Below, piece after piece: positions 10,733-64,000 of a stretch of DNA of 64,000 nucleotides. The translations under genes were made by a program, and so were the position numbers. Within the stretch, counting starts at the first letter, position 1; each line of letters opens with the position of its first letter. The stretch comes from Cordia subcordata. Lineage: Eukaryota > Streptophyta > Magnoliopsida > Boraginales > Cordiaceae. The stretch spans positions 19,463,001-19,527,000 of the forward strand of contig JAPTOF010000007.1 of the NCBI GenBank assembly GCA_028554755.1. The letters are read 5' to 3'. The notes under the pieces were generated by a model. The model was given only the letters and a program-made list of their open reading frames with translations. It did not search any database and was not told the DNA's origin.

Positions 10733-11424
10733 TTCATCAGCCCTGGAGTGCAAAAAAATAAAAGAATTTACATATTGGGCAGTATACATTGGGGACAGTA
10801 CATCTAGTATTCCTAATGATGGTGAATTTGAAATTGAAGTACCTGATGATTTGCTTATTACGGATTTCTAAAATCCATTAGTAGCAATTTTTGAAAGTTC
10901 ATACCCAGAACCACTTACTAATATGAATCAGAGTGTTTGTCTCCAAAAGTGAGCAATTTTTGTACCAACACCTGAAATTGTTGAAGCAATGGATGATTAC
11001 ATGCTTTGGTTTCTTCCAGGAGAAGAGCATATATACCTACGCTCAGATAGTATTTGTAAAGCAAATTTGGTTGTTGATTCAGAAGCAAATTCATTCACAC
11101 TAGAGTTTTTCTAACAATATGAAGTGTTCACGTATTCCAGACAATGTTTTGAAGATTAAACTTGGATTTCTTGTTATGTTGCTAAAGAGATGTTGACCAA
11201 GATTCCGGTCTTTATATTGGACCCAAACATAAAGTGACTCAATTGGGGAACCGTGCTGCTGAAGTGAGCTTTTGTTTGGACGAAATGCTGGAGTTAAAGT
11301 TTCTACACCAAGAATAGTGATGACTTCTAATAATACAAATTTTCTATTTAAGCTACAACTTAGCTAATTCCCCTTGGTTGTTTCCCTTGCCATGACCATG
11401 AACAAAAGTTTGGGGCAACCTTTC
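10733..11424 (+). pseudogene. Helitron PIF1-like helicase C-terminal remnant, U0
   Basis: This is the most divergent of the eight copies and the most readable. It encodes phrases of Helitron PIF1 helicases: IPNDGEFEIEVPDDLLI, PTPEIVEAMDDYM, PGEEHIYLRSDSICK and, near the end, MTMNKSLGQP (family: MTINKSQGQSL). Internal stops and shifts break it, for example TAA after FLEFF-like sequence at about 11,113. The PGEE motif is intact here but damaged in most other units. Helitron helicases unwind DNA during rolling-circle transposition; this is a non-functional fragment lacking the Rep domain and the helicase N-terminal half. Confidence 0.85.
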
Positions 11425-11430
11425 AGCTAA

Positions 11431-13768
11431 TTCCTCAGGGTACATTTGCAATAGGAGAAGTACTCTTCGAAGGTCCTTGCACCGCTTCCAAACCCATTAC
11501 CATTGAAATTCAAGGGACTCTTCTGGGAAACACAGATCTCAGTCTTTACAAAAGCGGCAGATGGATAACAATCAGCCACGTCGATGGTATCGTACTTACC
11601 GGTGGAGGAACCCTAAATGGCCAAGGTGAGTCGTCATGGAAGGAAAGGGAAAATGGTTGCGGGCTGCTTCCAGATGTATGTGTAACTGCTCAATTCCTAA
11701 GTCTATATTTCTTTTCTCGAACTACGCTATACTGGTCAAAGTTTTGCGCTTTTTTTATAAAGTAATCTTTCAATTTATAATTTTTTCTCTATGTGAATAA
11801 TATATCTTAGCTCATTTGCTTAACATTATTCATCAATTTGATAGAGTTATTCTTTAAAATAGCATCCTAATTTGTGACCAAATTAAACAAATAACTCTTT
11901 GGATACTCAACTTTTAGTAGAGAAATGGCTCGTAAGTGAGACCAATCACGCATAGAGATTGACGAAGCTAACCTAATGGTCCGCCTATGATATATTTTGC
12001 AGAAACTTTTGCTGTTAAATCAATTGAAAAAACAATACAGATGTAGGTGTTTCTAGTTCATACGACTTTTTTTTTTTTTAATCTCCTCAAACTACTTTAC
12101 CACCGTATCTAGCCCGTTGTAACATGTCAAATTAAATCTAAACTAGTACCAGATGTGTAATTTGGAGATTATATCGACTCCTAATATGCATTGACATACG
12201 TTAAGCTTTTCTTGTATGGATGCAGGGTCTTGTATGGCGAGTGTAACTAATTCATTATGCAAAATGTCAACCTCCTCAATAGCAAAGGGTTCCACATGAA
12301 GGTTACTGACTGCACCAACATAACGATGTCGGATCTCAACATAACTGCGCCAGGAGACAGCCCTAACACTGATGGTGTCCACATTAGTGGTTCTCAAGCT
12401 ATCACCATTACTAACTGTGTCATTGGAACGGGTGACGATTGCATCTCTATTGGCGATGGCAACGATGGTGTTAACGTCTCCAAAGTCTTTTGTGGACCTG
12501 GACATGGCATCAGGTTTGTTCTTGCATCATCATCGTCGTGTTCCAATCTCAAAATCTCGTAAGAATGATGAGTAGATGCTTTAGGTCAGGCAAATCACAA
12601 TTCTAATATTACAATTTATCAATTAAAACTACAACATCCTAGGTAGAGCTATGCATGAACTAGTATGGAGAGCAGGCCCCACTAACCACAAAGACGAAGC
12701 CATTAAAGAGCGTGTTGGCATCGCTTTTTGATCTTGAATACATGTGAAGTTTTAAAGCATTTAGATTGAAAAATCAATTTGACCCCATTGTAAATAAAAA
12801 TATCGTAGATGAACCACACGGCATGAACTTCTTTGCTACATCATATCATCTCTTGCACAGCCACATATCGCCGTTATTATAAAAGAAGTTGGAATGTGGA
12901 TTATTTCATAAACATGTAGCTTTTAAATTTGGTCTATTATAAGTTATGAACGCGTCATTCTTTATTTCTTATGTTCTATTGTTTTTCTAAATCTTCACAT
13001 TTTCTTGTATATGTGACAGCGTTGGTAGCCTTGGCAAGCGTCAAGGAGAGCAGACGTCAAAGGAATTACTGATAACTAATTGTACGCTAACCGGGACAAC
13101 AAATGGAGCCAGATTAAAACACGGAGAGCTTCGCTCCGCTCAAGCGTAAAATATTATCTTTGACGATATAGTCATGAATGACGTTAACCCCATTATCATT
13201 GATCAAAGCTATATGTCAAAGGATAAAGCGGTGAGATATTGTACTTTGTTGTGCTGGCGTGAATTTAAAATATTTTATCTATGAAAATGAAGTGATAACT
13301 AAGTAATTTTAATGATCGGATTTAATGAAACTTATATATAAGTGATTGTTTTCTCAAAACGAAAATAAAGCATTTCATAAGGTTTTATGGAAACAGGTTG
13401 GTCGCTGTACGTAAGATCTAAGAGTAGATCCACTAGCACTTTTAAATTATTACGAAACAAAAATTTAGTGTTTGATTTTTTTATTATAAATAAACTAGAT
13501 ACATATTGATTTCAAGCCTAATGTCTCTTTTGAACTAACTACACAGCCATCCAAGGTGAAGATTAGTGATGTCCACTTCAAGAACATAAGAGGGACCACA
13601 GTGTCAAAAATTGCAGTTGCTCTCAATTGCAGTGAAGCAGTTCCTTGTGAAGGCATTGAATTGGTGGCGTTGATCTAACGACCTCTGCCGATGTTGGCGA
13701 TCTTTCTTCCGTATGCACCAATGCCAAAGTTATCGTTAATGGGAAATTAAGCCTGCTGGTTGTAGCTA
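11431..13768 (+). pseudogene. Exopolygalacturonase-like gene copy PG0, 5'-truncated
   Basis: GH28 family remnant with exons at 11431-11675 (3' part of exon 2, open), 12226-12513 (exon 3), 13020-13230 (exon 4) and 13547-13768 (exon 5). The promoter, signal peptide and exon 1 are absent because of the U0 deletion. Exon 3 keeps NTDG, GTGDDC and GPGHG. Small indels at former CAG/CTG sites break exon 3 (GGCGAGTG for GGCAGAGTG), exon 4 and exon 5. It cannot make enzyme even if the small indels are sequencing errors. Confidence 0.9.
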
Positions 13769-14779
13769 AATCAAAAATACGTTGGTCCGAACGACCTAGA
13801 AATCATTTTTGTGATGTATATTTAGTGTTCCATCCTTTAGATTATTTTGATGTGTCCAAAGGCTGATAATCGCCTTAGGCACCAAGTGTAAGACGGCATG
13901 TTTCCTTATAGCATTTTACTTAAATGAATATGCCAAATCTAATTCTTTCTTTTTCTCTCTTTAGTCTTGAGGCTATTTATCGCATTGTTGATCAAGACAA
14001 CGACAAGTATTTTAGCCATGCCCTGGCTCATGTAGAAAGTCCAGGCTATAAGATAAAATATAGGATCAAGGAAGCGAACTAGGCTGCTGCCCGATTAGGG
14101 TTTCCTAAACCTAATCAAATTCTTAATAACGTTTTTCGCTTATATGTATGTTGAGTTGTTTTTATCAATTTTGTTTTGGAATCGAAAAACTAGAGCCCCT
14201 TCTTTCTTGGCTCTCTTTTTGTTTTGTTCAAAGAAGCTTCAATGAAGAAATAAAGAAGTTATGCATTACAAGATTAACCAATATCCGATTGTCCAAGACC
14301 GGATAGGAGCATATTGGCAAGACTGAAAGGTATATTAGAATTTTAATGCGAAGTTGGTTAGTAAATGTAAAAACTTTTCTATCTAATTAGCAGCCTCAGA
14401 GGTTGCATTTATCTCATTACAACCACCTTCTATGTCAGTGATTTCTTGAAACCAATGGAAATAATGTGCTCACATGCCAACCCTCTTAATATATATTTAA
14501 GTTGCCAGAAATAAACATTTGACCATTAAACTCATGCTACGTATTTCATGCTTAATTTATTTCTCAGTATTTCTTAAAACCTACCACTAAGTCGTATATT
14601 GAGTGTCTTAATAACTATTCCTAAAACCACTATCACGCTCGTATGTATGCCACATTAGGCAAATACTACTGGTTGTTCTTAAGAGTCAAGCTGAAATTGT
14701 GCATGCATCATTAAATTCATAACGCCTTTGGGTGCATTTTTATGTTTATGTCTTAGCAAAACATGCATTTGACTAGAGG
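13769..14779 (+). other. 3' flank of PG0
   Basis: Non-coding sequence shared by all units; equivalents are 21455-22472, 29149-30158, 36829-37837, 44508-45523, 52207-53217 and 59889-60903. It holds an exon-like segment after a TCTCTCTTTAG acceptor-like sequence (about 13,965), the telobox hairpin at 14093-14116, and a GAGCCCC...TTGGCTC short inverted repeat. No gene was recognised. It should include the 3' UTR and polyadenylation region. Confidence 0.7.
14093..14116. other. Telobox-containing palindrome (U0; one per unit)
   Basis: GATTAGGGTTTCCTAAACCTAATC is a near-perfect inverted repeat (GATTAGG / CCTAATC arms) and includes TTAGGGTTT, a plant telobox. The same 24 bp sits at 21781, 29474, 37155, 44834, 52532 and 60212, unchanged, even though the bases just before it vary between units. 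Confidence 0.75.
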
Positions 14780-15470
14780 TTCATCAGCCTTGGAGTGCAA
14801 GAAAATAAAAGAATTTACATATTGGGCAATATACATTGGGGACAATACATCTAGCATTCCTAATGATGGTGAATTTGAAATTGAAGTACCTGATGATTTG
14901 CTTATTACAGATTTCTAACATCTATTAGTAGCAATTTTTGAAAGTTCATACCTAACTACTTACTAAAATGAATCAGAGTGTTTGTCTCCAAAAGTGAGCA
15001 ATTTTTGCACCAACACTTGAAATTGCTGAAGCAATAGATGATTACATGCTTTGGTTTCTTCGGAGAAGAACATGTATACCTACGCTCAGATAGTATTTGT
15101 AAGCAAATTTGGTTATTGATTCAGAAGCAAATTCATTCACTCTAGAGTTTTTTTAACAATATGAAGTGTTCACGTATTCCAGACAATGTTTTGAAGATTA
15201 AAGTTGGATTTCTTGTTATGTTGCTAAAGAGATGTTGACCAGGCTTCAGGTCTTTGTATTGGAACCAAACATAAAGTGACTCAATTGGGGAACCGTCTTT
15301 CTTGAAATGAGCTTTTGTTTGGACGAAATGTTGGAGTTAAAGTTTATATACCAAGAACAGAGATGACTTCTAATAATACAAATTTTCTATTTATGCTACA
15401 ACTTAGCTAATTCCCTTTGGTTGTTTCCCTTGCCATGACTATGAACAAAAGTTTGGGACAATCTTTGTGT
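14780..15470 (+). pseudogene. Helitron PIF1-like helicase C-terminal remnant, U1
   Basis: Reads as broken PIF1-type helicase: PNDGEFEIEVPDDLLI, an in-frame TAA after ITDF, LEIAEAIDDYMLWF, SDSICK, IPDNVLKIKVGFLVMLL, and MTMNKSLGQSL at about 15,430. The order matches the C-terminal third of plant Helitron helicases. Several stops and indels exclude function. The Rep/HUH nuclease is absent, so this is a fragment and not a mobile Helitron. Confidence 0.85.
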
Positions 15471-16472
15471 AATTTTGGCTAGAAATGAGCATAGGACGGG
15501 CTGGTTCAGAATTTAGTCAACGCATGTCGCTTCCCAAAGTTTCGAGATGTTCATTTTCAACTGCGCCGTTCTCGGCTAAACATATTTGCATCCTATCCAA
15601 TCCCATCCCAAATGTTATAGAGATTTTGGGATGGTGCGGTTCAGGTTTCGGGATAAAATTATATTTTCAAAATAAAGAATAATAAAATAGCAGATTCAGT
15701 TTTCAAAATCATCATTCATACAAATTAGAAAATCTCTGTTTCACGTCACAAAAGTTAGAAAAAGTGAATAAAAATTAAAAATATTAATGTCATCTTTTAC
15801 TCCAATATTTGCTTACGAAGCATTTTAAGAGCTATGAGGATTTATTTTAGAAACCAAGTTAAATTTCTTTAGATTTTTAATTTTAATTCAAACTTAAAAG
15901 AAGTATTTTTTTATTAGAAATGTGATTGGAGTAAACTTGAAATACAAAATTATATCTTGAATCTCAAGTCCGAGACATTATTGAGCAAAATAAATAAAAA
16001 CTATGAAATCCTCTTCAAATAAAAGAAGAGAGAATATTTTAACTCTTTATATGTTATTTTATAAATATAGATATAGATTCTTTTCTCTTTTCTGCTTGGG
16101 CAATGGTTTAATTGATGTTTTAATTTTTTTAATGCTAAATCTATGACTTTTTCAGTGACACATCACTATTTACAGCAACATACAATTAACTTGTGCTCCA
16201 TCTAGCATTTGTTTATATGGCATCCTTAGAGTTTGAGGCTTAAGTCACAATTTTAGAATTCTTTATTATTTTTTAACTTTTAATTTTTATTTAGAACTCA
16301 AAAATTATTTTTATAATTGTAATATAAATAAGTTTAAATTAAAATTCTTTTATGGATCTCAGTTTGCGATAGTATTGGAATAAATGAAAACTCAATACTA
16401 ATTCCCTTTCAGATTAAAGAGAGGAAACAATAACTTTAACATTATATATGTTACACAGGTAGATCTATATAC

Positions 16473-16504
<32 letters not shown>

Positions 16505-18268
16505 GTTTATGTTTCTCTTTTTTTCGTTCATCATTCAATTGATATTTTTATTTTTCTTAAGCTTGGAAGCTAATGATATTTTTCACTTGGTGCATCACCT
16601 TTTTTTGAGTGTCTAAAATTGATTCGTAGTTGTGTACCTTCTATTAATTTACTTGTGTCACATCAAAGTTTGAAGGTTTAACTTAATGTAAATTATACTG
16701 ATTAATTAAAGTGAAGGATAAAGGATTTCTTTGACATGTGAAAAATTAGATAGGTAAGATTAGAACTATAAAAGATTTTAAAAAAATAACATAAATTTTA
16801 TAAATATATATGTACATATATATATAATTTATAAATATACATATGTTATTATATAGTATTTCTTTCGGGGACGGGATTTACCGCAAAAGACAAGGCAGTT
16901 CAGGTTTGAGATGGGATGCGCTGGGATAAAGGCTGAGATATACATATGACCTAAGATTTATTGTCTTCAAATGGCACAAGAAGCATAGTGCTTCTAAGGA
17001 GTACAAAGTTGTGGGGAAAAATAATTATTTGCAAAAATTAGCTATTCCCAAATGTAAGAAAAAAGAATTAAAACCCTTAAATGCTAGGGGGAGGGGCGCT
17101 AGGAAAGTTGTTGAAGTTAACCTTAGTTTATTTGGATGTCGAGGCCTCTAAACTATTATGCGCATTTAGAGATCCATAACATTACGTTTTTTAATTCAAT
17201 AAAAATTGAGTAACAATGATAATTACAACGTGAAGTGTTGAGTTTTTTTTCTTATTTTTTTTATTGCTATTGCCTAATCAATATTTGGTTGAAAAATAAA
17301 CATTTTAAATTTCTTTTCTAACCTCGGCGGATAATTTAATTTTCTTGAACCCACTCGTTGTAGCGGGAGAATAATTTTTTTTCTTGAAAAAACATCCAAT
17401 TGTTTTCTTTTGCTTCAATTTAGTTGTCTTTATATGAACTTATTAGCATTTATATTTTGAATATCAGAAGGCAAAGAGAATTGATGTTCGAACCAATGAT
17501 TTCGATCATGGGCGTAGGTTCGCATTATCCTATCCATTGTCATCACCATACTCTAGCTTATTACTAAACTCCAATCCAAAGCTTGCTTATAACTAAAACT
17601 CCAATCCAAAGTGTGATGCACAAGAAATAACGAAGCGATTTACACGAATTCTTTGCCTTTCCTAAAATAACAGAACCACGGGCGCCAATAAACGTCAAAT
17701 ATATTGATTACGCCTTTTCCATTTGATTAAAAGAGAAAGCGGACCAAAAGAAAATAGAAAAGGAAACATGAATAAGGAATACTAGTCACCACTTTAAGAT
17801 TAACCGTTCAATGCATGGTCATCTTCTTTCTCTCTTTGATTCTGACAAACTCAAGAGAAGTGAATTTCCACGCGTTTGGTGTTGCAAGAAAGAAATTGTT
17901 TAAGTTGAAATTGTTAAAGTTAGCTAACCATAAACAACCATTTTATTTTATGTTTTTGGATAATTTTCTAATGACAAGGGAATAACATTGTCTATAAGAA
18001 TATTTTGAAGATGTTGAGAAGGCCGTTTCGCAATTGAAGTTTTGAAGAACCTTCATTGCGAAATAAATGGATCGAAAAAAGTTAGAAATTATTAGTGCGA
18101 AAGATTAATTTTGGTTCATTCTCCTTCAACTCTGAAATGATGAAAAACTAGATTAATTAGATACCACGAATAGCTCAACTAAAAACGACCTTTACAATAT
18201 TTGTGGAGAAGTTCCCCGAAATGACATACAAACCAAATAAACATATAACTAATTTATGAGAAATACAG
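15471..18268 (+). other. AT-rich spacer between helicase fragment and PG promoter, U1
   Basis: About 2.8 kb without a recognisable gene. Equivalents are 23164-25953, 30845-33638, 38527-41314, 46210-49017, 53898-56701 and 61595-64000. GC-richer patches at 15,485-15,660 and 16,865-16,945 share GGTTCAGGTTTCG-like and GGGATGGGAT-like phrases and bracket a very AT-rich core. This is reminiscent of subterminal repeats of a non-autonomous hAT-like element, but I found no matching terminal inverted repeats. The remainder (16,950-18,268) is unassigned upstream DNA with a GAAGCATAGTGCTTC hairpin and a repeated ACTCCAATCCAAAG phrase. Confidence 0.6.
16465..16504. repeat. (AT)n microsatellite, U1; length varies between units
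   Basis: TATACATATATATATATATG followed by a TATATA run. Equivalents are 24158-24200, 31841-31881, 39521-39561, 47201-47248, 54895-54937 and 62590-62630. Run lengths differ from unit to unit, so it can serve as a unit fingerprint. Confidence 0.9.
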
Positions 18269-18277
18269 TATAAAAAG
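18269..18277 (+). promoter_or_regulatory. TATA box of PG1
   Basis: TATAAAAAG within ACAGTATAAAAAGCTATCGG, about 110 bp upstream of the position of the first exon-1 ATG. It is identical in the six complete units. Confidence 0.7.
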
Positions 18278-18402
18278 CTATCGGACTTCCGTTTTCATTC
18301 ATAACCCAAATAAATTTTAAATAAAACTACCCTATATTTCTGAACTACCCCGAAGCTGACAATAGGTTCAACGCCACCAGGTTTCTACCAAGCGGGCAAG
18401 GC

Positions 18403-21400
18403 ATGAAGGTTCTTTACCTTCTTGGTCTAACCTTGTTCTCAATTAGGACTGAGTGTGCTCCTTGGTTCACGTCGTGGCCTTGCCGCAGTGGTGAGACAGT
18501 TTTGATGTCACTAAAGATGGGGCCGTAGCGAATGGCAAAAGCAGAAAGTGCTTGATGCGTAAGCTAAGAGAACTCCTGATTTCTCAATCAAATAACTATT
18601 TTCTTTGCGAAAAATAATGCATCTTCTAGAGCGAGTCTTATGTTGTTAGTAGTTGTTCTAATACAATGGCGTGAACTCAAGATTAAGAGATAGCTCAAGT
18701 GATTGAGACAATCTTCACAATTTAAATTAATTTTTTCAATCCCATGGCGACCGAGGTTTTAAGAAAAACGAGGCGTGGCGTGAACTCATTAATAGTATTC
18801 TAATTTGAAAAGTGAATATGCCTTACTTTGCAACTTTGTTTTCATATTGTGCAAAATAAATTACTTCGAAACTTTGAAAAAAGATTGTGGAACACCTACG
18901 TCTCAACTCTTTTATAATTATAGTTTTAGTTGCGAAGGAAGGCCGGAAATTGGAAAGAGACATTTTAATACACGAATATCTCGTTACACTTTCTCGATGG
19001 GTAAATTTGATGTGCCCATTTGATCTACATGCGTGCATGCAGGCGTTCACTAAAACGTGGAATGCAGCATGCCATGCGACAGGACCAGCTAGGATTCTCG
19101 TTCCTCAGGGTACATTTGCAATAGGAGAAGTACTCTTCGAAGGTCCTTGCACCGCTCCCAAACCCATTACCATTGAAATTCAAGGGACTCTTATGGGAAA
19201 CACAGATCTCAGTCTTTACAAAAGCGGCGGATGGATAACAATCAGCCACGTCGATGGTGTCGTACTTACGGTGGAGGAACCCTAAATGGCCAAGGTGAGG
19301 CGTCATGGAAGGAAAGGGAAAATGGTTGCGGGCTGCTTCCAGATGTATGTGTAACTGCTCAATTCCTAAGTCTATATTTCTTTTCTCGAACTACGCTATA
19401 CTGGTCAAAGTTTTGCGCTTTTTATAAAGTAATCTTTCAATTTATAATTTTTCTCTATGTGAATAATATATCTTAGCTCATTTGCTTAACATTATTCATC
19501 AATTTGATAGAGTTATTCTTTAAAATAGCATCCTAATTTGTGACCAAATTAAACAAATAACTCTTTGGATACTCGACTTTTAGTAGAGAAATGGCTCGTA
19601 AGTGAGACCAATCACGCATAGAGATTGACGAAGCTAACCTAATGGTCCGCCTATGATATATTTTGCAGTAACTTTTGCTGTTAAATCAATTGAAAAAACA
19701 ATACAGATGTAGGTGTTTCTAGTTCATACGACTTTTTTTTTTTTTAATCTCCTCAAACTACTTTACCACCGTATCTAGCCCGTTGTAACATGTCAAATTA
19801 AATCTAAACTAGTACCAGATGTGTAATTTCGGAGATTATATCGACTCCCTAATATGCATTGACATACGTTAAGCTTTTCTTGTATGGATGCAGGGTCTTG
19901 TATGGCAGAGTGTAACTAATTCTGTTATGCAAAATGTCAACCTCCTCAATAGCAAAGGGTTCCACATGAAGGTTACTGACTGCACCAACATAACGATGTC
20001 GGATCTCAACATAACTGCGCCAGGAGACAGCCCTAACACTGATGGTGTCCACATTAGTGGTTCTCAAGCTATCACCATTACTAACTGTGTCATTGGAACG
20101 GGTGACGATTGCATCTCTATTGGCGATGGCAACGATGGTGTTAACGTCTCCAAAGTCTTTTGTGGACCTGGACATGGCATCAGGTTTGTTCTTGCATCAT
20201 CATCGTCGTGTTCCAATCTCAAAATCTCGTAAGAATGATGAGTAGATGCTTTAGGTCAGGCAAATCACAATTCTAATATTACAATTTATCAATTAAAACT
20301 ACAACATCCTAGGTAGAGCTATGCATGAACTAGTATGGAGAGCGAGCCCCACTAACCACAAAGACGAAGCCATTAAAGAGCGTGTTGGCATCGCTTTTGA
20401 TCTTGAATACATGTGAAGTTTTAAAGCATTTAGATTGAAAAATCAATTTGACCCCATTGTAAATAAAAATATCGTAGATGAACCTCGCACGGCATGAACT
20501 TCTTTGCTTCATCATATCATCTCTTGCACAGCCACATATCGCCGTTATTCTAAATGAAGTTGGAATGTGGATTATTTCATAGACTTGTAGCTTTTAAATT
20601 TGGTCTATTATAAGTTATGAACGTCATTCTTTATTTCTTATGTTCTATTGTTTTTCTAAATCTTCACATTTTCTTGTATATGTGACAGCGTTGGTAGCCT
20701 TGGCAAGCGTCAAGGAGAGACAGACGTCAAAGGAATTCTGATAACTAATTGTACGCTAACCGGGACAACAAATGGAGCCAGATTAAAACACGAGAGCTTC
20801 TGCTCCGCTCCAAGCGTAAAATATTATCTTTGACGATATAGTCATGAATGACGTTCAGAACCCCATTATCATTGATCAAAGCTATATGTCAAAGGATAAA
20901 GCAGAGGTGAGATATTGTACTTTGTTGTGCTGAGCGTGAATTTAAAATATTTTATCTATGAAAATGAAGTGATAACTAAGTAATTTTAATGATCGGATTT
21001 AATGAAACTTATATATAAGTGATTGTTTTCTCAAAAACGAAAATAAAGCATTTCATAAGGTTTTATGGAAACAGGTTGGTCGCTTGCACGTAAGATCTAA
21101 GAGTAGATCCACTAGCACTTTTAAATTATTACACGAAACAAAAATTTAGTGTTTGATTTTTTATTATAAATAAACTAGATACATATTGATTTCAAGCCTA
21201 ATGTCTCTTTTGAACTAACTACACAGCCATCCAAGGTGAAGATTAGTGATGTCCACTTCAAGAACATAAGAGGGACCACAGTGTCAAAAATTGCAGTTGC
21301 TCTCAATTGCAGTGAAGCAGTTCCTTGTGAAGGCATTGAATTGGCTGACGTTGATCTAACAGCAGCCTCTGCCGATGTTGGCGATCTTTCTTATGTATGC

Positions 21401-21454
21401 ACCAATGCCAAAGTTATCGTTAATGGGAAATTAAGCCCTGCTGGTTGTAGCTAA
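18403..21454 (+). CDS. Exopolygalacturonase-like (GH28) gene PG1, frame broken as read
   Basis: Five exons: 18403-~18556, 19043-19344, 19894-20183, 20689-20906, 21227-21454. In the composite protein (about 406 codons) residues 1-60 hold a signal peptide ([19 protein letters not shown]) and the GH28 start. The four family motifs are NTDG (about 209), GDDC (231), GHG (254) and RIK (289). The Asp residues of NTDG and GDDC are catalytic in GH28, which hydrolyses de-esterified pectin in the wall; exo-acting, pollen-type activity is inferred from overall resemblance. In PG1 the first ATG reads AGG, leaving the second ATG (18403). Exon 1 lacks bases at a C run and a CAG, exon 2 lacks one base (CTTACGGTGG), and exon 4 lacks two near RIK. 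Exons 3 and 5 are intact. Splice sites are phase 0 (after exon 1), 0, 2 and 0. Confidence 0.88.
18668..18788 (+). mobile_element. tRNA-derived SINE in intron 1, U1 (variant body)
   Basis: A body of about 97 bp lies between 12-bp direct repeats GGCGTGAACTCA (18668-18679 and 18777-18788). A box-A-like TAGCTCAAGTGATTGAG is present. The box-B region seen in other units (CTGGGTTCAATCCC) is replaced by an AT-rich stretch ending TTTTTTCAATCCC, so the promoter is probably dead. The tail is AAGAAAAA. Confidence 0.8.
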
Positions 21455-22472
21455 ATCAAAAATACGTTGGTCCGAACGACCTAGAAATCATTTTTGTGAT
21501 GTATATTTAGTGTTCCATCCTTTAGATTATTTTGATGTGTCCAAAGGCTGATAATCGCCTTAGGCACCAAGTGTAAGACGGCATGTTTCCTTATAGCATT
21601 TTACTTAAATGAATATGCCAAATCTAATTCTTTCTTTTTCTCTCTTTAGTCTTCGAGGCTATTTATCGCATTGTTGATCAAGACAACGACAAGTATTTTA
21701 GCCATGCCCCTGGCTCATGTAGAAAGTCCAGGCTATAAGATAAAATATAGGATCAAGGAAGCGAACTAGGCCGTCTGCCCGATTAGGGTTTCCTAAACCT
21801 AATCAAATTCTTAATAACGTTGTTCGCTTATATGTATGTTGAGTTGTTTTTATCAATTTTGTTTTGGAATCGAAAAACTAGAGCCCCTTCTTTCTTGGCT
21901 CTCTTTTTGTTTTGTTCAAAGAAGCTTCAATGAAGAAATAAAGAAGTTATGCATTACAAGATTAACCAATATCCGATTGTCCAAGACCGGATAGGAGCAT
22001 ATTGGCAAGACTGAAAGGTATATTAGAATTTTAATGCGAAGTTGGTTAGTAAATGTAAAAACTTTTCTATCTAATTAGCAGCCTCAGAGGTTGCATTTAT
22101 CTCATTACAACCACCTTCTATGTCAGTGATTTCTTGAAACCAATGGAAATAATGTGCTCACATGCCAACCCTCTTAATATATATTTAAGTTGCCAGAAAT
22201 AAACATTTGACCATTAAACTCATGCTACGTATTTCATGCTTAATTTATTTCTCAGTATTTCTTAAAACCTACCACTAAGTCGTATATTGAGTGTCTTAAT
22301 AACTATTCCTAAAACCACTATCACGCTACTGTATGTATGCCACATTAGGCAAATACTACTGGTTGTTCTTAAGGGGAGTCAAGCTGAAATTGTGCATGCA
22401 TCATTAAATTCATAACGCCTTTGGGTGCATTTTTATGTTTATGTCTTAGCAAAACATGCATTTGACTAGAGG

Positions 22473-24165: not shown

Positions 24166-24198
<33 letters not shown>

Positions 24199-47209: not shown

Positions 47210-47244
<35 letters not shown>

Positions 47245-49026: not shown

Positions 49027-49127
49027 CTATCGGACTTCCGTTTTCATTCATAACCCAAATAAATTTTAAATAAAACTTCCCTATCTTTGTGAACTACCCC
49101 GAAGCTGTCATTAGGTTCAAGGCCACC

Positions 49128-52206: not shown

Positions 52207-53217
52207 ATCAAAAATACGTTGGTCCGAACGACCTAGAAATCATTTTTGTGATGTATATTTAGTGTTCCATCCTTTAGATTATTTTGATGTGTCCAAAGGC
52301 TGATAATCGCCTTAGGCACCAAGTGTAAGACGGCATGTTTCCTTATAGCATTTTACTTAAATGAATATGCCAAATCTAATTCTTTCTTTTTCTCTCTTTA
52401 GTCTTGAGGCTATTTATCGCATTGTTGATCAAGACAACGACAAGTATTTTAGCCATGCCCCTGGCTCATGTAGAAAGTCCAGGCTATAAGATAAAATATA
52501 GGATCAAGGAAGCGAACTAGGCCGTCTGCCCGATTAGGGTTTCCTAAACCTAATCAAATTCTTAATAACGTTTTTCGCTTATATGTATGTTGAGTTGTTT
52601 TTATCAATTTTGTTTTGGAATCGAAAAACTAGAGCCCCTTCTTTCTTGGCTCTCTTTTTGTTTTGTTCAAAGAAGCTTCAATGAAGAAATAAAGAAGTTA
52701 TGCATTACAAGATTAACCAATATCCGATTGTCCAAGACCAGATAGGAGCATATTGGCAAGACTGAAAGGTATATTAGAATTTTAATGCGAAGTTGGTTAG
52801 TAAATGTAAAAACTTTTCTATCTAATTAGCAGCCTCAGAGGTTGCATTTATCTCATTACAACCACCTTCTATGTCAGTGATTTCTTGAAACCAATGGAAA
52901 TAATGTGCTCACATGCCAACCCTCTTAATATATATTTAAGTTGCCAGAAATAAACATTTGACCATTAAACTCATGCTACGTATTTCATGCTTAATTTATT
53001 TCTCAGATTTCTTAAAACCTACCACTAAGTCGTATATTGAGTGTCTTAATAACTATTCCTAAAACCACTATCACGCTCGTATGTATGCCACATTAGGCAA
53101 ATACTACTGGTTGTTCTTAAGAGTCAAGCTGAAATTGTGCATGCATCATTAAATTCATAACGCCTTTGGGTGCATTTTTATGTTTATGTCTTAGCAAAAC
53201 ATGCATTTGACTAGAGG

Positions 53218-53897
53218 TTCATCAGCCTTGGAGTGCAAGAAAATAAAAGAATTTACATATTGGGCAATATACATTGGGGACAATACATCTAGCATTCCTA
53301 ATGATGGTGAATTTGAAATTGAAGTACCTGATGATTTGCTTATTACAGATTTCTAACATCTATTAGTAGCAATTTTTGAAAGTTCATACCTAACTACTTA
53401 CTAAAATGAATCAGTGTTTGTCTCCAAAAGTGAGCAATTTTGCACCAACACTTGAAATTGCTGAAGCAATAGATGATTACATGCTTTGGTTTCTTCGGAG
53501 AAGAACATGTATACCTACGCTCGATAGTATTTGTAAGCAAATTTGGTTATTGATTCAAGCAAATTCATTCACTCTAGAGTTTTTAACAATATGAAGTGTT
53601 CACGTATTCGGACAATGTTTTGAAGATTAAAGTTGGATTTCTTGTTATGTTGCTAAAGAGATGTTGACCAGGCTTCGGTCTTTGTATTGGAACCAAACAT
53701 AAAGTGACTCAATTGGGGAACCGTCTCACTGAGCTGAGCTTTTGTTTGGACGAAATGTTGGAGTTAAAGTTTATATACCAAGAATAGTGATGACTTCTAA
53801 TAATACAAATTTTCTATTTATGCTACAACTTAGCTAATTCCCTTTGGTTGTTTCCCTTGCCATGACTATGAACAAAAGTTTGGGACAATCTTTGTGT
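53218..53897 (+). pseudogene. Helitron PIF1-like helicase remnant, U6
   Basis: As in U1. Positions 53406-53594 give a chance 62-codon frame joining LSPKVSNFAPTLEIAEAIDDY to LEFLTI, the longest continuous helicase reading among the six complete units. Confidence 0.83.
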
Positions 53898-54902
53898 AAT
53901 TTTGGCTAGGGCTGAGCATAGGACGGGCTGGTTCAGGAATTTAGTCAACGCATGTCGCTTCCCAAAGTTTCGAGATGTTCATTTTCACTGCGCCGTTCTC
54001 GGCTAAACATATTTGCATCCTATCCAATCCCATCCCAAATGTTATAGAGATTTTGGGATGGTGCGGTTCAGGTTTCGGGATAAAATTATATTTTCAAAAT
54101 AAAGAATAATAAAATAGCAGATTCAGTTTTCAAAATCATCATTCATACAAATTAGAAAATCTCTGTTTCACGTCACAAAAGTTAGAAAAAGTGAATAAAA
54201 ATTAAAAATATTAATGTCATCTTTTACTCCAATATTTGCTTACGAATCATTTTAAGAGCTATGAGGATTTATTTTAGAAACCAAGTTAAATTTCTTTAGA
54301 TTTTTAATTTTAATTCTAACTTAAAAGAAGTATTTTTTTATTAGAAATGTGATTGGAGTAAACTTGAAATACAAAATTATATCTTGAATCTCAAGTCCGA
54401 GACATTATTGAGCAAAATAAATAAAAACTATGAAATCCTCTTCAAATAAAAGAAGAGAGAATATTTTAACTCTTTATATGTTATTTTATAAATATAGATA
54501 TAGATTCTTTTCTCTTTTCTGCTTGGGCAATGGTTTAATTGATGTTTTAATTTTTTTTAATGCTAAATCTATGACTTTTTCAGCTGACACATCACTATTT
54601 ACAGCAACATACAATTAACTTGTGCTCCATCTAGCATTTGTTTATATGGCATCCTTAGAGTTTGAGGCTTAAGTCACAATTTTAGAATTCTTTATTATTT
54701 TTTAACTTTTAATTTTTATTTAGAACTCAAATATTATTTTTATAATTGTAATATAAATAAGTTTAAATTAAAATTCTTTTATGGATCTCAGGTTTGCGAT
54801 AGTATTGGAATAAATGAAAACTCAATACTAATTCCCTTTCAGATTAAAGAGAGGAAACAATAACTTTAACATTATATATGTTACACAGGTAGATCTATAT
54901 AC

Positions 54903-54935
<33 letters not shown>

Positions 54936-56701
54936 TGTTTATGTTTCTCTTTTTTTCGTTCATCATTCAATTGATATTTTTATTTTTCTTAAGCTTGGAA
55001 GCTAATGATATTTTTCACTTGGTGCATCACCTTTTTTTGAGTGTCTAAAATTGATTCGTAGTTGTGTACCTTCTATTAATTTACTTGTGTCACATCAAAG
55101 TTTGAAGGTTTAACTTAATGTAAATTATACAGATTAATTAAAGTGAAGGATAAAGGATTTCTTTGACATGTGAAAAATTAGATAGGTAAGATTAGAACTA
55201 TAAAAGATTTTAAAAAAATAACATAAATTTTATAAATATATATGTACATATATATATAATTTATAAATATACATATGTTATTATATAGTATTTCTTTCGG
55301 GACGGATTTACCATAAAAGACAAGACGGTTCAGGTTTGAGATGGGATGCGCTGGGATAAAGGCTGAGATATACATATGACCTAAGATTTATTGTCTTCAA
55401 ATGGCACAAGAAGCATAGTGCTTCTAAGGAGTACAAAGTTGTGGGGAAAAATAATTATTTGCAAAAATTAGCTATTCCCAAATGTAAGAAAAAAGAATTA
55501 AAACCCTTAAATGCTAGGGGGAGGGGCGCTAGGAAAGTTGTTGAAGTTAACCTTAGTTTATTTGGATGTCGAGGCCTCTAAACTATTATGCGCATTTAGA
55601 GATCCATAACATTACGTTTTTTAATTCAATAAAAATTGAGTAACAATGATAATTACAACGTGAAGTGTTGAGTTTTTTTTCTTATTTTTTTTATTGCTAT
55701 TGCCTAATCAATATTTGGTTGAAAAATAAACATTTAAAATTTCTATTCTAACCTCGTCGGAAAATTTAATTTTCATGAACCCACTCATTGTAACGGGAGA
55801 ATAATTTTTTCTTGAAAAACATCCAATTGTTTTCTTTTGCTTCAATTTAGTTGTCTTTATATGAACTTATTAGCATTTATATTTTGAATATCAGAAGGCA
55901 AAGAGAATTGATGTTCGAACCAATGATTTCGATCATGGGCCGTAGGTTCGCATTATCCTATCCATTGTCATCACCATACTCTAGCTTATTACTAAACTCC
56001 AATCCAAAGCTTGCTTATAACTAAAACTCCAATCCAAAGTGTGATGCACAAGAAATAACGAAGCAGATTTACACAGAATTCTTTGCCTTTCCTAAAATAA
56101 CAGAACCACAGGACGCCAATAAACGTCAAATATATTGATTACGCCTTTTCCATTTGATTAAAAGAGAAAGCAGACCAAAAGAAAATAGAAAAGGAAACAT
56201 GAATAAGGAATACTAGTCACCACTTTAATATTAACCGTTCAATGCATGGTCATCTTCTTTCTCTCTTTGATTCTGACAAACTCAAGAGAAGTGAATTTCC
56301 ACTGACGTTTGGTGTTGCAAGAAAGAAATTGTTTAAGTTGAAATTGTTAAAGTTAGCTAACCATAAACAACCATTTTATTTTATGTTTTTGGATAATTTT
56401 CTAATGACAAGGGAATAACATTGTCTATAAGAATATTTTGAAGATGTTGAGAAGGCCGTTTCGCAATTGAAGTTTTGAAGAACCTTCATTGCGAAATAAA
56501 TGGATCGAAAAAAGTTAGAAATTATTAGTGCGAAAGATTAATTTTGGTTCATTCTCCTTCAACTCTGAAATGATGAAAAACTAGATTAATTAGATACCAC
56601 GAATAGCTCAACTAAAAACGACCTTTACAATATTTGTGGAGAAGTTCCCCGAAATGACATACAAACCAAATAAACATATAACTAATTTATGAGAAATACA
56701 G

Positions 56702-56710
56702 TATAAAAAG
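56702..56710 (+). promoter_or_regulatory. TATA box of PG6
   Basis: TATAAAAAG, 110 bp upstream of the ATG at 56812. Confidence 0.75.
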
Positions 56711-56811
56711 CTATCGGACTTCCGTTTTCATTCATAACCCAAATAAATTTTAAATAAAACTTCCCTATCTTTGTGAACTACCCCGAAGCTGTCATTAGGT
56801 TCAAGGCCACC

Positions 56812-59800
56812 ATGTTTCTTCCAAGGGGGCAAGGCATGAAGGTTCTTTACCTTCTTGGTCTAACCTTGTTCTCAATTAGGACTGAGTGTGCTCCCCTTGG
56901 TTCACGTCGTGGCCTTGCCGCAGGTGGTGAGACCGTTTTTGATGTCACTAAAGATGGGGCCGTAGCAGATGGCAAAACAGAAAGTGCTTCGGTACGTAAG
57001 CTAAGAGAACTCCTGATTTCTCAATCAAATAACTATTTTCTTTGCGAAAAAATAATGCATCTTCTAGAGCCTGAGTCTTATGTTGTAAGTAGTTGTTCTA
57101 AAACAATGGCGTGAACTCAAGACTAAGAGATAGCTCAAGTGATTGAGACAATCTTCCCCATGTCAAGTCCTCGGTTCAATCCCATGGCGACCGAGGTTTT
57201 AAGAAAAAAACGAGGCGTGGCGTGAACTCATTAATAGTATTCTAATTTGAAAAGTGAATATGCCTTACTTTGCAACTTTGTTTTCATATTGTGCAAAATA
57301 CATTACTTCGAAACTTTGAAAAAAGATTGTGGAACACCTACGTCTCAACTCTTTTATAATTATAGTTTTAGTTGCGAAGGAAGGCCGGAAATTGTAAAGA
57401 GACATTTTAATACACGAATATCTCGTTACACTTTCTCGATGGGTAAATTTGATGTGCCCATTTGATCTACATGCGTGAATGAAGGCGTTCACTAAAACGT
57501 GGAATGCAGCATGCCATGCGACAGGACCAGCTAGGATTCTCGTTCCTCAGGGTACATTTGCAATAGGAGAAGTACTCTTCGAAGGTCCTTGCACCGCTCC
57601 CAAACCCATTACCATTGAAATTCAAGGGACACTTACGGGAAACACAGATCTCGGTCTTTACAAAAGCGGCGGATGGATAACAATCAGCCACGTCGATGGT
57701 GTCGTACTTACGGTGGAGGAACCCTAAATGGCCAAGGTGATGCGTCATGGAAGGAAAGGGAAAATGGTAGCGGGCTGCTTCCAGATGTATGTGTAACTGC
57801 TCAATTCCTAAGTCTATAATTCTTTTCTCGAACTACGCTATAATAGTCAAAGTATTGCGCTTTTTTATAAAGTAATCTTTCAATTTATAATTTTTTCTCT
57901 ATGTGAATAATATATCTTAGCTCATTTGCTTAACATTATTCATCAATTTGATAGAGTTATTCTTTAAAATAGCATCCTAATTTGTGACCAAATTAAACAA
58001 ATAACTTTTTGGATACTCGACTTTTAGTAGAGAAATGGCTCGTAAGTGAGACCAATCACGCATAGAGATTGTGAAGCTAACCTAATGGTCCGCCTATGAT
58101 ATATTTTGCAGAAACTTTTGCTGTTAAATCAATTGAAAAAACAATACAGATGTAGGTGTTTCTAGTTCATACGACTTTTTTTTTTTTTAATCTCCTCAAA
58201 CTACTTTACCACCGTATCTAGCCCGTTGTAACTTGTCAAATTAAATCTAAACTAGTACCAGATGTGTAATTTCGGAGATTATATCGACTCCCTAATATGC
58301 ATTGACATACGTTAAGCTTTTCTTGTATGGATGCAGGGTCTTGTATGGCAGAGTGTAACTAATTCTTATGCAAAATGTCAACCTCCTCAATAGCAAAGGG
58401 TTCCACATGAAGGTTCTTGTCGCACCAACATAACGATGTCGGATCTCAACATAACTGCGCCAGGAGACAGCCCTAACACTGATGGTGTCCACATTAGTGG
58501 TTCTCAAGCTATCACCATTACTAACTGTGTCATTGGAACGGGTGACGATTGCATCTCTATTGGCGATGGCAACGATGGTGTTAACGTCTCCAAAGTCTTT
58601 TGTGGACCTGGACATGGCATCAGGTTTGTTCTTGCATCATCATCGTCGTGTTCCAATCTCAAAATCTCGTAAGAATGATGAGTAGATGCTTTAGGTCAGG
58701 CAAATCACAATTCTAATATTACAATTTATCAATTAAAACTACAACATCCTAGGTAGAGCTATGCATGAACTAGTATGGAGAGCAGGCCCCACTAACCACA
58801 AAGACGAAGCCATTAAAGAGCGTGTTGGCATCGCTTTTTGATCTTGAATACATGTGAAGTTTTAAAGCATTTAGATTGAAAAATCAATTTGACCCCATTG
58901 TAAATAAAAATATCGTAGATGAACCCCTGCACGGCATGAACTTCTTTGCTTCTGTCATATCATCTCTTGCACAGCCACATATCGCCGTTATTCTAAATGA
59001 AGTTGGAATGTGGATTATTTCATAGACTTGTAGCTTTTAAATTTGGTCTATTATAAGTTATGAACGTCATTCTTTATTTCTTATGTTCTATTGTTTTTCT
59101 AAATCTTCACATTTTCTTGTATATGTGACAGCGTTGGTAGCCTTGGCAAGCGTCAAGGAGAGACAGACGTCAAAGGAATTACTGATAACTAATTGTACGC
59201 TAACCGGGACAACAAATGGAGCCGATTAAAACACGAGAGCTTCGCTCCGCTCCAAGCGTCAAATATTATCTTTGACGATATAGTCATGAATGACGTTCGT
59301 AACCCCATTATCATTGATCAAAGCTATATGTCAAAGGATAAAGCAGAGGTGAGATATTGTACTTTGTTGTGCTGAGCGTGAATTTAAAATATTTTATCTA
59401 TGAAAATGAAGTGATAACTAAGTAATTTTAATGATCAGGATTTAATGAAACTTATATATAAGTGATTGTTTTCTCAAAAACGAAAATAAAGCATTTCATA
59501 AGGTTTTATGGAAACAGTTGGTCGCTTACGTAAGATCTAAGAGTAGATCCACTAGCACTTTTAAATTATTACGAAACAAAAATTTAGTGTTTGATTTTTT
59601 ATTATAAATAAACTAGATACATATTGATTTCAAGCCTAATGTCTCTTTTGAACTAACTACACCATCCAAGGTGAAGATTAGTGATGTCCACTTCAAGAAC
59701 ATAAGAGGGACCACGGTGTCAAAAATTGCGCTTGCTCTCAATTGCGTGAAGCGATTCCTTGTGAAGGCATTGAATTGGCTGACGTTGATCTAACAAAGAC

Positions 59801-59888
59801 CTCTGCCGATGTTGGCGATCTTTCTTCTGTATGCACCAATGCCAAAGTTATCGTTAATGGGAAATTAAGCCCTGCTGGTTGTAGCTAA
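56812..59888 (+). CDS. Exopolygalacturonase-like (GH28) gene PG6, frame broken as read
   Basis: Exons 56812-56991, 57485-57786, 58337-58623, 59132-59349, ~59662-59888. Exon 1 is intact, as in PG5. The exon 2 acceptor context changed from GCATGCAG to GAATGAAG but keeps AG. Exon 2 lacks one base (CTTACGG) and has private substitutions. Exon 3 lacks three bases in two places (AATTCTTATG; GGTTCTTGTCGCACC), with a stop between. Exon 4 is shifted at GCCGATTAAAACACG. The exon 5 acceptor ACACAG|CC reads ACACC, so the AG is missing, and exon 5 shares the CAG/CTG-site changes of PG2. NTDG, GDDC and GHG remain. Confidence 0.87.
57108..57230 (+). mobile_element. tRNA-derived SINE in intron 1, U6
   Basis: Flanked by GGCGTGAACTCA at 57108-57119 and 57219-57230. 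Box B reads CTCGGTTCAATCCC, as in U5. Confidence 0.85.
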
Positions 59889-60903
59889 ATCAAAAATACG
59901 TTGGTCCGAACGACCTAGAAATCATTTTTGTGATGTATATTTAGTGTTCCATCCTTTAGATTATTTTGATGTGTCCAAAGGCTGATAATCGCCTTAGGCA
60001 CCAAGTGTAAGACGGCATGTTTCCTTATAGCATTTTACTTAAATGAATATGCCAAATCTAATTCTTTCTTTTTCTCTCTTTAGTCTTGAGGCTATTTATC
60101 GCATTGTTGATCAAGACAACGACAAGTATTTTAGCCATGCCCTGGCTCATGTAGAAAGTCCAGGCTATAAGATAAAATATAGGATCAAGGAAGCGAACTA
60201 GGTTGCTGCCCGATTAGGGTTTCCTAAACCTAATCAAATTCTTAATAACGTTTTTCGCTTATATGTATGTTGAGTTGTTTTTATCAATTTTGTTTTGGAA
60301 TCGAAAAACTAGAGCCCCTTCTTTCTTGGCTCTCTTTTTGTTTTGTTCAAAGAAGCTTCAATGAAGAAATAAAGAAGTTATGCATTACAAGATTAACCAA
60401 TATCCGATTGTCCAAGACCGGATAGGAGCATATTGGCAAGACTGAAAGGTATATTAGAATTTTAATGCGAAGTTGGTTAGTAAATGTAAAAACTTTTCTA
60501 TCTAATTAGCAGCCTCAGAGGTTGCATTTATCTCATTACAACCACCTTCTATGTCAGTGATTTCTTGAAACCAATGGAAATAATGTGCTCACATGCCAAC
60601 CCTCTTAATATATATTTAAGTTGCCAGAAATAAACATTTGACCATTAAACTCATGCTACGTATTTCATGCTTAATTTATTTCTCAGTATTTCTTAAAACC
60701 TACCACTAAGTCGTATATTGAGTGTCTTAATAACTATTCCTAAAACCACTATCACGCTACTGTATGTATGCCACATTAGGCAAATACTACTGGTTGTTCT
60801 TAAGGGGAGTCAAGCTGAAATTGTGCATGCATCATTAAATTCATAACGCCTTTGGGTGCATTTTTATGTTTATGTCTTAGCAAAACATGCATTTGACTAG
60901 AGG

Positions 60904-61594
60904 TTCATCAGCCTTGGAGTGCAAGAAAATAAAAGAATTTACATATTGGGCAATATACATTGTGGACAATACATCTAGCATTCCTAATGATGGTGAATTT
61001 GAAATTGAAGTACCTGATGATTTGCTTATTACAGATTTCTAACATCTATTAGTAGCAATTTTTGAAAGTTCATACCCAGAACTACTTACTAAAATGAATC
61101 AGAGTGTTTGTCTCCAAAAGTGAGCAATTTTTGCACCAACACTTGAAATTGCTGAAGCAATAGATGATTACATGCTTTGGTTTCTTGGAGAAGAACATGT
61201 ATACCTACGCTCAGATAGTATTTGTAAGCAAATTTGGTTATTGATTCAGAAGCAAATTCATTCACTCTAGAGTTTTTTTAACAATATGAAGTGTTCACGC
61301 ATTCCAGACAATGTTTTGAAGATTAAAGTTGGATTTCTTGTTATGTTGCTAAAGAGATGTTGACCAGGCTTCCGGTCTTTGTATTGGAACCAAACATAAA
61401 GTGACTCAATTGGGGAACCGTGCTGCTGAGCTGAGCTTTTGTTTGGACGAAATGTTGGAGTTAAAGTTTATATACCAAGAACAGAGATGACTTCTAATAA
61501 TACAAATTTTCTATTTATGCTACAACTTAGCTAATTCCCTTTGGTTGTTTCCCTTGCCATGACTATGAACAAAAGTTTGGGACAATCTTTGTGT
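60904..61594 (+). pseudogene. Helitron PIF1-like helicase remnant, U7
   Basis: As in U1. TTTCTTGGAGAAGAACATG reads FLGEEHVYLRSDS, closest of the U1-U7 copies to the PGEE motif seen in U0. Confidence 0.83.
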
Positions 61595-62597
61595 AATTTT
61601 GGCTAGGGCTGAGCATAGGACGGGCTGGTTCAGGAATTTAGTCAACGCATGTCGCTTCCCAAAGTTTCGAGATGTTCATTTTCACTGCGCGTTCTCGGCT
61701 AAACATATTTGCATCCTATCCAATCCCATCCCAAATGTTATAGAGATTTTGGGATGGTGCGGTTCAGTTTCGGGATAAAATTATATTTTCAAAATAAAGA
61801 ATAATAAAATAGCAGATTCAGTTTTCAAAATCATCATTCATACAAATTAGAAAATCTCTGTTTCACGTCACAAAAGTTAGAAAAAGTGAATAAAAATTAA
61901 AAATATTAATGTCATCTTTTACTCCAATATTTGCTTACGAAGCATTTTAAGAGCTATGAGGATTTATTTTAGAAACCAAGTTAAATTTCTTTAGATTTTT
62001 AATTTTAATTCAAACTTAAAAGAAGTATTTTTTTATTAGAAATGTGATTGGAGTAAACTTGAAATACAAAATTATATCTTGAATCTCAAGTCCGAGACAT
62101 TATTGAGCAAAATAAATAAAAACTATGAAATCCTCTTCAAATAAAAGAAGAGAGAATATTTTAACTCTTTATATGTTATTTTATAAATATAGATATAGAT
62201 TCTTTTCTCTTTTTCTGCTTGGGCAATGGTTTAATTGATGTTTTAATTTTTTTTAATGCTAAATCTATGACTTTTTCAGTGACACATCACTATTTACAGC
62301 AACATACAATTAACTTGTGCTCCATCTAGCATTTGTTTATATGGCATCCTTAGAGTTTGAGGCTTAAGTCACAATTTTAGAATTCTTTATTATTTTTTAA
62401 CTTTTAATTTTTATTTAGAACTCAAAAATTATTTTTATAATTGTAATATAAATAAGTTTAAATTAAAATTCTTTTATGGATCTCAGGTTTGCGATAGTAT
62501 TGGAATAAATGAAAACTCAATACTAATTCCTTTTTATATTAAAGAGATGAAAAAATAACTTTAACATTATATATGTTATTAAGGTAGATCTATATAC

Positions 62598-62629
<32 letters not shown>

Positions 62630-64000
62630 GTTTATGTTTCTCTTTTTTTCGTTCATCATTCAATTGATATTTTTATTTTTCTTAAGCTTGGAAGCTAATG
62701 ATATTTTTCACTTGGTGCATCACCTTTTTTTGAGTGTCTAAAATTGATTCGTAGTTGTGTACCTTCTATTAATTTACTTGTGTCACATCAAAGTTTGAAG
62801 GTTTAACTTAATGTAAATTATACTGATTAATTAAAGTGAAGGATATAGGATTTCTTTGACATGTGAAAAATTAGATAGGTAAGATTAGATCTTTTATATT
62901 TTTTAAATTAATAACATATATTTTATAAATATTTATGTACATATATATATAATTTATATATATACATTTGTTATTATTTAGTATTTCTTTCGGGACGGGA
63001 TTTACCGCAAAAGACAAGACGGTTCAGGTTTCGAGATGGGATGCGCTGGGATAAAGGCTGAGATATACATATGACCTAAGATTTATTGTCTTCAAATGGC
63101 ACAAGAAGCATAGTGCTTCTAAGGAGTACAAAGTTGTGGGGAAAAATAATTATTTGCAAAAATTAGCTATTCCCAAATGTAAGAAAAAAGAATTAAAACC
63201 CTTAAATGCTAGGGGGAGGGGCGCTAGGAAAGTTGTTGAAGTTAACCTTAGTTTATTTGGATGTCGAGGCCTCTAAACTATTATGCGCATTTAGAGATCC
63301 ATAACATTACGTTTTTTAATTCAATAAAAATTGAGTAACAATGATAATTACAACGTGAAGTGTTGAGTTTTTTTTCTTATTTTTTTTATTGCTATTGCCT
63401 AATCAATATTTGGTTGAAAAATAAACATTTTAAATTTCTTTTCTAACCTCGGCGGATAATTTAATTTTCTTGAACCCACTCGTTGTAGCGGGAGAATAAT
63501 TTTTTTTCTTGAAAAAACATCCAATTGTTTTCTTTTGCTTCAATTTAGTTGTCTTTATATGAACTTATTAGCATTTATATTTTGAATATCAGAAGGCAAA
63601 GAGAATTGATGTTCGAACCAATGATTTCGATCATGGGCCGTAGGTTCGCATTATCCTATCCATTGTCATCACCATACTCTAGCTTATTACTAAACTCCAA
63701 TCCAAAGCTTGCTTATAACTAAAACTCCAATCCAAAGTGTGATGCACAAGAAATAACGGCGATTTACAGAATTCTTTGCCTTTCCTAAAATAACGAGAAC
63801 CACGGGGACGCCAATAAACGTCAAATATATTGATTACGCCTTTTCCATTTGATTAAAAGAGAAAGCAGACCAAAAGAAAATAGAAAAGGAAACATGAATA
63901 AGGAATACTAGTCACCACTTTAATATTAACCGTTCAATGCATGGTCATCTTCTTTCTCTCTTTGATTCTGACAAACTCAAGAGAAGTGAATTTCCACTGA
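60904..64000 (+). repeat. Array unit U7 (partial; cut by window edge)
   Basis: Matches other units from the helicase fragment into the spacer. It ends about 400 bp before the expected TATA box, so its polygalacturonase gene should lie just outside the window. Private A/T-rich changes cluster at 62,525-62,585 and 62,885-62,985. Confidence 0.95.

Follow-up and report, generated by a model that had tools for sequence, protein, structure and literature searches.

In a 64,000-nucleotide stretch of the Cordia subcordata genome (C60:19463001-19527000, hereafter the window), a gene of the pectinase family GH28 is repeated head to tail in units of about 7.69 kb. Here, we describe this array and related arrays elsewhere in the assembly (472 Mb, 62 contigs). 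The differences among its units fall preferentially at CAG/CTG and CG sites, and we argue that the array probably arose by tandem amplification of a functional gene and that most of the differences among its assembled units are likely to be residual nanopore miscalls at methylated cytosines.

Results

Self-comparison of the window places the array, in a single orientation, from 10733 to the window end, and from 11431 onward the sequence matches itself at each multiple of the period. The layout proposed in the first-pass annotation, six full units with one deleted and one partial unit at a period of 7679-7694 bp, was borne out, and the units are delimited as follows.

10733..14779 (4,047 bp), + strand: u0, the unit at the left edge, from which about 3.6 kb is deleted; no promoter or exon 1 (self-alignment; deletion junction located)
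14780..22472, + strand: u1, full unit, 7,693 bp
22473..30158, + strand: u2, full unit, 7,686 bp
30159..37837, + strand: u3, full unit, 7,679 bp
37838..45523, + strand: u4, full unit, 7,686 bp
45524..53217, + strand: u5, full unit, 7,694 bp
53218..60903, + strand: u6, full unit, 7,686 bp
60904..64000, + strand: u7, in-window part of a unit ending at window-equivalent 68588

The six full in-window units (14780-60903) are 7,679-7,694 bp long and 98.55-99.49% identical in pairwise comparison, gaps not counted. The array is longer than had been claimed: comparison with the flanking contig shows that it continues past the window end and that u7 is completed there, giving seven full units overall, all counts being copy numbers as assembled. 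Right of u7, pieces at 94.1%, 93.5% and 86.9% identity reach window-equivalent 74942, and scattered pieces at 79-85% identity extend up to 89360. The edge units u0 and u7 and the decayed right-edge pieces differ clearly, so that at least a few units are real; decayed edges around a uniform middle are, moreover, expected under unequal exchange. The repeats are near-identical, kilobase-sized and head to tail, and they include whole intergenic regions, as in a megasatellite, which upholds the earlier interpretation of the locus as a gene-bearing large-unit tandem repeat. The left-edge unit is itself chimeric, its first 690 bp (10733-11423) being about 6% diverged and the remainder about 2%, with old sequence joined to homogenised sequence. 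A subtelomeric position was considered and dropped, since neither TTTAGGG nor CCCTAAA occurs in the last 4 kb of contig C60 or the last 2 kb of contig C20, which carries one of the related arrays.

The gene of u1 and its upstream element are laid out as follows.

18266..18278, + strand: TATA-like box, CAGTATAAAAAGC, identical in u2-u6
18403..18558, + strand: exon 1, frame broken as assembled (splice-aware alignment)
19043..19344, + strand: exon 2 (splice-aware alignment)
19894..20183, + strand: exon 3 (Pfam and splice-aware alignment)
20689..20906, + strand: exon 4 (splice-aware alignment)
21227..21454, + strand: exon 5 (Pfam and splice-aware alignment)

The TATA-like box, claimed earlier for every unit, was found in all six full in-window units. 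Exon pieces match the Pfam family PF00295 (GH28), and a composite exon query has 4,458 relatives at E <= 0.001 among 7,984 scored candidates. The best 20 comprise 18 proteins at 51-60% identity and two longer ones at 39-43%, and most of the named relatives among these 20 are asterid exopolygalacturonases. By homology, then, this is a GH28 exopolygalacturonase gene; exo-acting activity is predicted from the likeness to proteins so named, the best solved relative being ADPG2, and a pollen type is suggested by homology alone.

Frames were read by frameshift-tolerant, splice-aware alignment to protein P0003. The claim that each unit carries a complete five-exon gene did not survive this analysis: none of the six full in-window units is open as assembled, each of u1-u6 having 2-7 frameshifts (3-7 in an alignment version without u7) and 0-3 stops. 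The gene of u7, completed outside the window, is open across five exons without a frameshift and is the only open one among the seven full units. Its protein spans positions 1-319 of the 324 in the PF00295 profile (312.2 bits), a full-length domain, and matches solved ADPG2 (7b8b) at E 4.7e-77. The u7 strings NTDG, GTGDDC, GPGHGIS and RIK align to ADPG2, and they contain NTDG, DD, GHG and RIK, which we take to be the conserved GH28 catalytic motifs. Over 345-346 aligned codons of exons 2-5, the ratio of nonsynonymous to synonymous substitution (dN/dS) of u7 is 0.16 against its closest dispersed paralog (C60:14632501-14636500; 90% amino-acid identity) and 0.22-0.33 against three other dispersed paralogs; misread upstream sequence, carried by three of the four paralog stretches, was excluded by local alignment to u7. 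The u7 lineage was under purifying selection. All four paralogs examined lack frameshifts in exons 2-5; the one on contig C7 is open over five exons, and the other three aligned poorly upstream of exon 2.

The alignment of u1-u6 contains 307 variable columns, which fall into 144 clusters (151 with tighter merging). Plant cytosine methylation occurs in CHG and CG contexts, and CAG/CTG is the main CHG context. For each of the 32 triplet classes we scored the fraction of consensus sites overlapping a variable column, which averages 7.7%. CAG/CTG is the most variable class (42 of 102 sites; odds ratio 8.9, p 5e-21), followed by CCG/CGG (18/54), CGA/TCG (25/110), CGC/GCG (15/70), CCC/GGG (16/83) and ACG/CGT (22/116); all of these but CCC/GGG fall within the CHG and CG contexts. 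Among the 57 indel clusters outside homopolymers, 43 touch CAG/CTG in some allele, 13 touch CG only and 1 touches neither; when u1 letters only are scored, 51 contain CAG/CTG or CG, as against 11.1 expected. The two motifs also replace each other: at sites where another unit has CAG/CTG, CG is present in 66 of 90 alleles without CAG/CTG and in 9 of 71 alleles that retain it. With u7 as the reference, 170 CAG/CTG instances are altered, 88 of them with a gained CG. Unit u7, which adjoins diverged DNA, has the highest CAG plus CTG count (112 versus 94-107 in the others) and the lowest CG count (160 versus 168-180), and CCG plus CGG shows no trend. At 9 of 29 exon variant clusters, some units show CG or a shortened form and a dispersed paralog has CAG/CTG; of the other 20 clusters, 3 have no paralog sequence, 2 have CG in the paralog and the remainder are indecisive.

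These observations bear on whether the copies are true pseudogenes, that is, a gene-derived satellite with real frameshifts that was amplified after or during gene decay. Such decay would account for the lack of any open frame as assembled in the six full in-window units and in the aligned units of the related arrays on contigs C20 (0/10) and C45 (0/7). We consider it unlikely, for u7 is open and its lineage constrained (dN/dS 0.16-0.33), the four paralogs are without frameshifts in exons 2-5, and the lesions, for the most part small indels, lie at CAG/CTG and CG and vary from unit to unit with no shared long-range, tree-like pattern. Pseudogenes were at one time the preferred reading, abandoned in view of the CAG/CTG and CG bias, the CAG/CTG forms of the paralog and the open u7.

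The kind of substitution supplies a further control. Within the first 690 bp of u0, 30 isolated substitutions comprise 23 transitions and 7 transversions, whereas isolated single-nucleotide variants (SNVs) of u1-u6 outside CAG/CTG/CG comprise 9 transitions and 34 transversions (Fisher p 3e-6); the rest of u0 has 8 and 7. Divergence in the 690-bp segment is ordinary and transition-rich, and the pattern in u1-u6 is not. Among isolated SNVs, transitions number 12 of 52 in C20, 22 of 62 in C45 and 16 of 69 in C60 with u7 included. Alleles are shared between units mainly over short distances, with correlations of 0.31-0.42 within 50 bp and 0.03-0.18 at 100-200 bp, and still 0.20 at 200-400 bp in C60, which would fit partial polishing by multi-mapped short reads.

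The differences could instead be real, if methylated CHG and CG sites mutated fast and gene conversion spread the variants in short tracts. Methylated cytosines are mutable, and nearby variants tend to occur in the same units across about 100-400 bp. Deamination, however, yields C-to-T changes, and at CAG/CTG most changes are indels or alter several bases, often with a new CG as the result, while the old segment of u0 shows ordinary divergence; this explanation appears very improbable.

We take more seriously the possibility that the copy number is partly a product of assembly, some interior units being the same reads repeated and distinguished only by errors. Few differences among u1-u6 look natural (9 transitions among 43 isolated SNVs outside CHG/CG), private isolated SNVs of this kind number none in u5 and two in u4, and in another classification u4 and u5 have no private two-allele substitution cluster. 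Yet u0, u7 and the decayed right-edge pieces are clearly different, and the same layout recurs in four other GH28 clusters, so that we hold partial duplication by the assembler to be possible but doubtful.

Several observations weigh against residual miscalls at methylated cytosines as the source of most differences. CCC/GGG, the fifth most variable class, belongs to neither the CG nor the CAG/CTG classes. The paralog has CG at exon clusters 18541 and 19269, and the excess of transversions among the remaining isolated SNVs is unexplained. The private isolated SNVs of u7 (19 transitions, 23 transversions) show that this unit is not a clean reference. Short gene-conversion tracts, too, could explain why neighbouring sites share alleles over about 100-400 bp. 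A CAG/CTG/CG motif lies no more than 12 nt from 24 of 27 frameshifts in u1-u6, 59 of 63 in C20 and 34 of 36 in C45; on its own this closeness is weak evidence, CG being expected in more motif windows than CAG/CTG. Finally, platform and methylation are deduced from the assembled letters, and a context-dependent error unrelated to methylation would also fit. We also observed private tracts in single units in which several letters change together, mostly C->A, G->T or T->A (e.g., u1 18714-18734); these tracts fit neither natural mutation nor the CHG signature.

At least 141 GH28 matches were scored across the genome, and related genes form two further arrays. The one on C20 has ten complete periods of 7,538-7,566 bp, with units 97.79-98.86% identical; the one on C45 has seven complete periods of 7,273-7,295 bp, counted up to the end of the examined stretch, with units 97.89-99.17% identical. 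Units of both match u1 only in part, at about 69-81% identity, and this, set against the 97.79-99.17% identity within arrays, points to separate amplification or separate homogenisation of the C60, C20 and C45 arrays. The signature recurs in them. CAG/CTG again heads the 32 triplet classes in C20 (84 of 124 sites variable, odds ratio 14), in C45 (70/122, odds ratio 12) and in C60 with u7 (57/109), and indel clusters outside homopolymers with neither CAG/CTG nor CG number 6 of 93, 1 of 57 and 3 of 62, respectively. All 17 aligned units of the two sister arrays have frames broken as assembled. Two regularly spaced GH28 clusters lie on opposite strands of contig C8 (C8:9146698-9211201 and C8:10726968-10785422), one strand holding 13 matches at intervals of 5.2-5.5 kb, the other 11 at intervals mostly of 4.6-5.0 kb. 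In the 10 kb sampled from each, both proved tandem, the repeats being 98.7% identical at a spacing of 5.32 kb in one and 96.6% identical at 4.77 kb in the other; because neither sample has a blastn match to u1 at E <= 1e-5, these clusters belong to another GH28 branch. In view of these further GH28 arrays in the genome, the arrangement is unlikely to have arisen as a single accident of assembly.

Two mobile-element remnants had been described in each unit.

10734..11156, + strand: Helitron-type helicase remnant in u0, read with stops (translation; Helraiser match); a homologous stretch starts each unit
18680..18775, + strand: SINE-like insert in intron 1 of u1, with 13-bp direct repeats at 18667-18679 and 18776-18788

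For the helicase remnant, the Helitron transposase Helraiser is the only PDB sequence match at E <= 10 (E = 0.003), which favours the earlier assignment; Pfam gave no match, nor did a protein search restricted to proteins of similar length. A remnant of the RepHel helicase is thus all that resembles a Helitron here: the terminal 5' TC and 3' hairpin with CTRR were not recovered, no hairpin plus CTRR having turned up when u1 and the left flank were scanned under strict settings, which looser ends would escape. Blastn matched the unit start, which holds the helicase part, to no C20 or C45 unit at E <= 1e-20; when 20-kb samples of the two arrays were searched at E <= 1e-5, it did not figure in the longest matches. 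Since the helicase part is unmatched in both sister arrays and no Helitron end was found, the remnant looks like a passenger and its pairing with the pectinase gene incidental. For the same reasons, a rolling-circle origin of the array from a gene-capturing Helitron, which the helicase remnant in each unit might suggest, seems the remotest of the explanations considered. The insert in intron 1, taken for a short interspersed nuclear element (SINE), has the 13-bp repeats on either side and aligns across all six full units, and therefore predates their amplification; its tRNA-like boxes were judged by eye only, and ARAGORN and Rfam (gathering threshold) found nothing in the window.

Left of the array, window positions 726-1169 match the GAG-pre-integrase and Pol beta-barrel retrotransposon domains of Pfam. 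A tandem repeat with a 135-bp unit (2.6 copies, 80% matches) lies at 7502-7855, and a 180-codon open frame adjoins the array at 9781-10323; by eye it resembles the RNase H end of a retrotransposon, with no significant Pfam match.

Discussion

We propose, as the likely history of this locus, that an intact exopolygalacturonase gene was amplified head to tail together with its promoter and several kilobases of neighbouring DNA, the Helitron remnant and SINE-like insert being carried along in the amplified unit. Unequal crossing-over, the most likely agent, would have altered copy number and homogenised the middle units, leaving the edges to decay. The true units would then be nearly identical and at least partly intact, and most assembled differences, frame breaks included, would be residual nanopore basecalling errors at CHG- and CG-methylated cytosines that persist where short reads lack unique placement. 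A basecaller whose training covered mainly CG methylation may write methylated CAG/CTG as strings that contain CG. Differences in DNA methylation or modification probably make nanopore reads of plant DNA less accurate, according to the available parts of PMC9749173 and PMC9049114, and a search of titles and abstract openings returned no report of CAG/CTG-to-CG miscalls or of GH28 head-to-tail arrays. If miscalls at methylated cytosines are responsible, the broken frames do not prove pseudogenes. Since the lesions resemble sequencing errors, neither the strong dosage nor the silenced reservoir envisaged in the first-pass annotation can be read from the frames, and dating the array by its 1-1.5% divergence was dropped because many of the differences look like errors. 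The array may supply dosage of a secreted pectinase.

The gene resembles plant exopolygalacturonases (GH28, PF00295; 'exopolygalacturonase clone GBGE184-like') in the domain coverage of u7 and in its best relatives, and differs from them in being repeated in uniform head-to-tail arrays. With gene-bearing megasatellites and tandem gene arrays under concerted evolution the array shares kilobase-sized gene units, a uniform period, a middle of like units and decayed edges; what differs here is that several arrays of one enzyme family with differing periods occur in one plant genome. Clustered pectinases are likewise found among the pollen polygalacturonases of maize and rice, whose clusters show TE-like methylation, and a maize cluster is among those activated by DNA glycosylases, as the accessible portion of PMC11436724 describes it. 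The same portion indicates that the maize clusters are not simple head-to-tail arrays and hold mostly one- or two-exon genes, whereas here the units are uniform and the genes have five exons, and that methylation and pollen activity were measured in maize, whereas here methylation is suspected from the error pattern and pollen use from homology. Pollen genes with TE-like methylation (teM) carry CG and non-CG methylation over coding DNA in leaf, which is lost in pollen; what bears on this here is indirect, a bias of the variation to CAG/CTG and CG read from assembly letters. The CHG/CG footprint suggests that the tissue sequenced carried dense methylation at this DNA, and, if maize pollen pectinases are a guide, the array could lose it in pollen and be expressed there. 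As far as the available text of PMC6102391 states, polygalacturonase genes of Clade C are flower-expressed and exo-type enzymes occur only in angiosperms.

If frames in plant tandem arrays can be broken, and their units made to differ by 1-2%, by basecalling artefacts at methylated CHG sites, pseudogene counts and ages taken from such assemblies can be wrong. A simple diagnostic would be the concentration of variable sites at CAG/CTG, with CG in their place. A bolder proposal, which we put forward tentatively and regard as rather less likely than not to hold in full, is that exopolygalacturonase genes of this plant repeatedly and independently gave rise to satellite-like arrays, which carry heavy CHG methylation in the plant body and are activated together in pollen by demethylation; the residual basecalling errors would then be a fossil map of methylation in arrays beyond the resolution of short reads. 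If confirmed, the present findings would mean that a single enzyme family gave rise to several arrays of large units within one genome, and would offer a good system in which to ask whether the copy number of a reproductive pectinase is selected.

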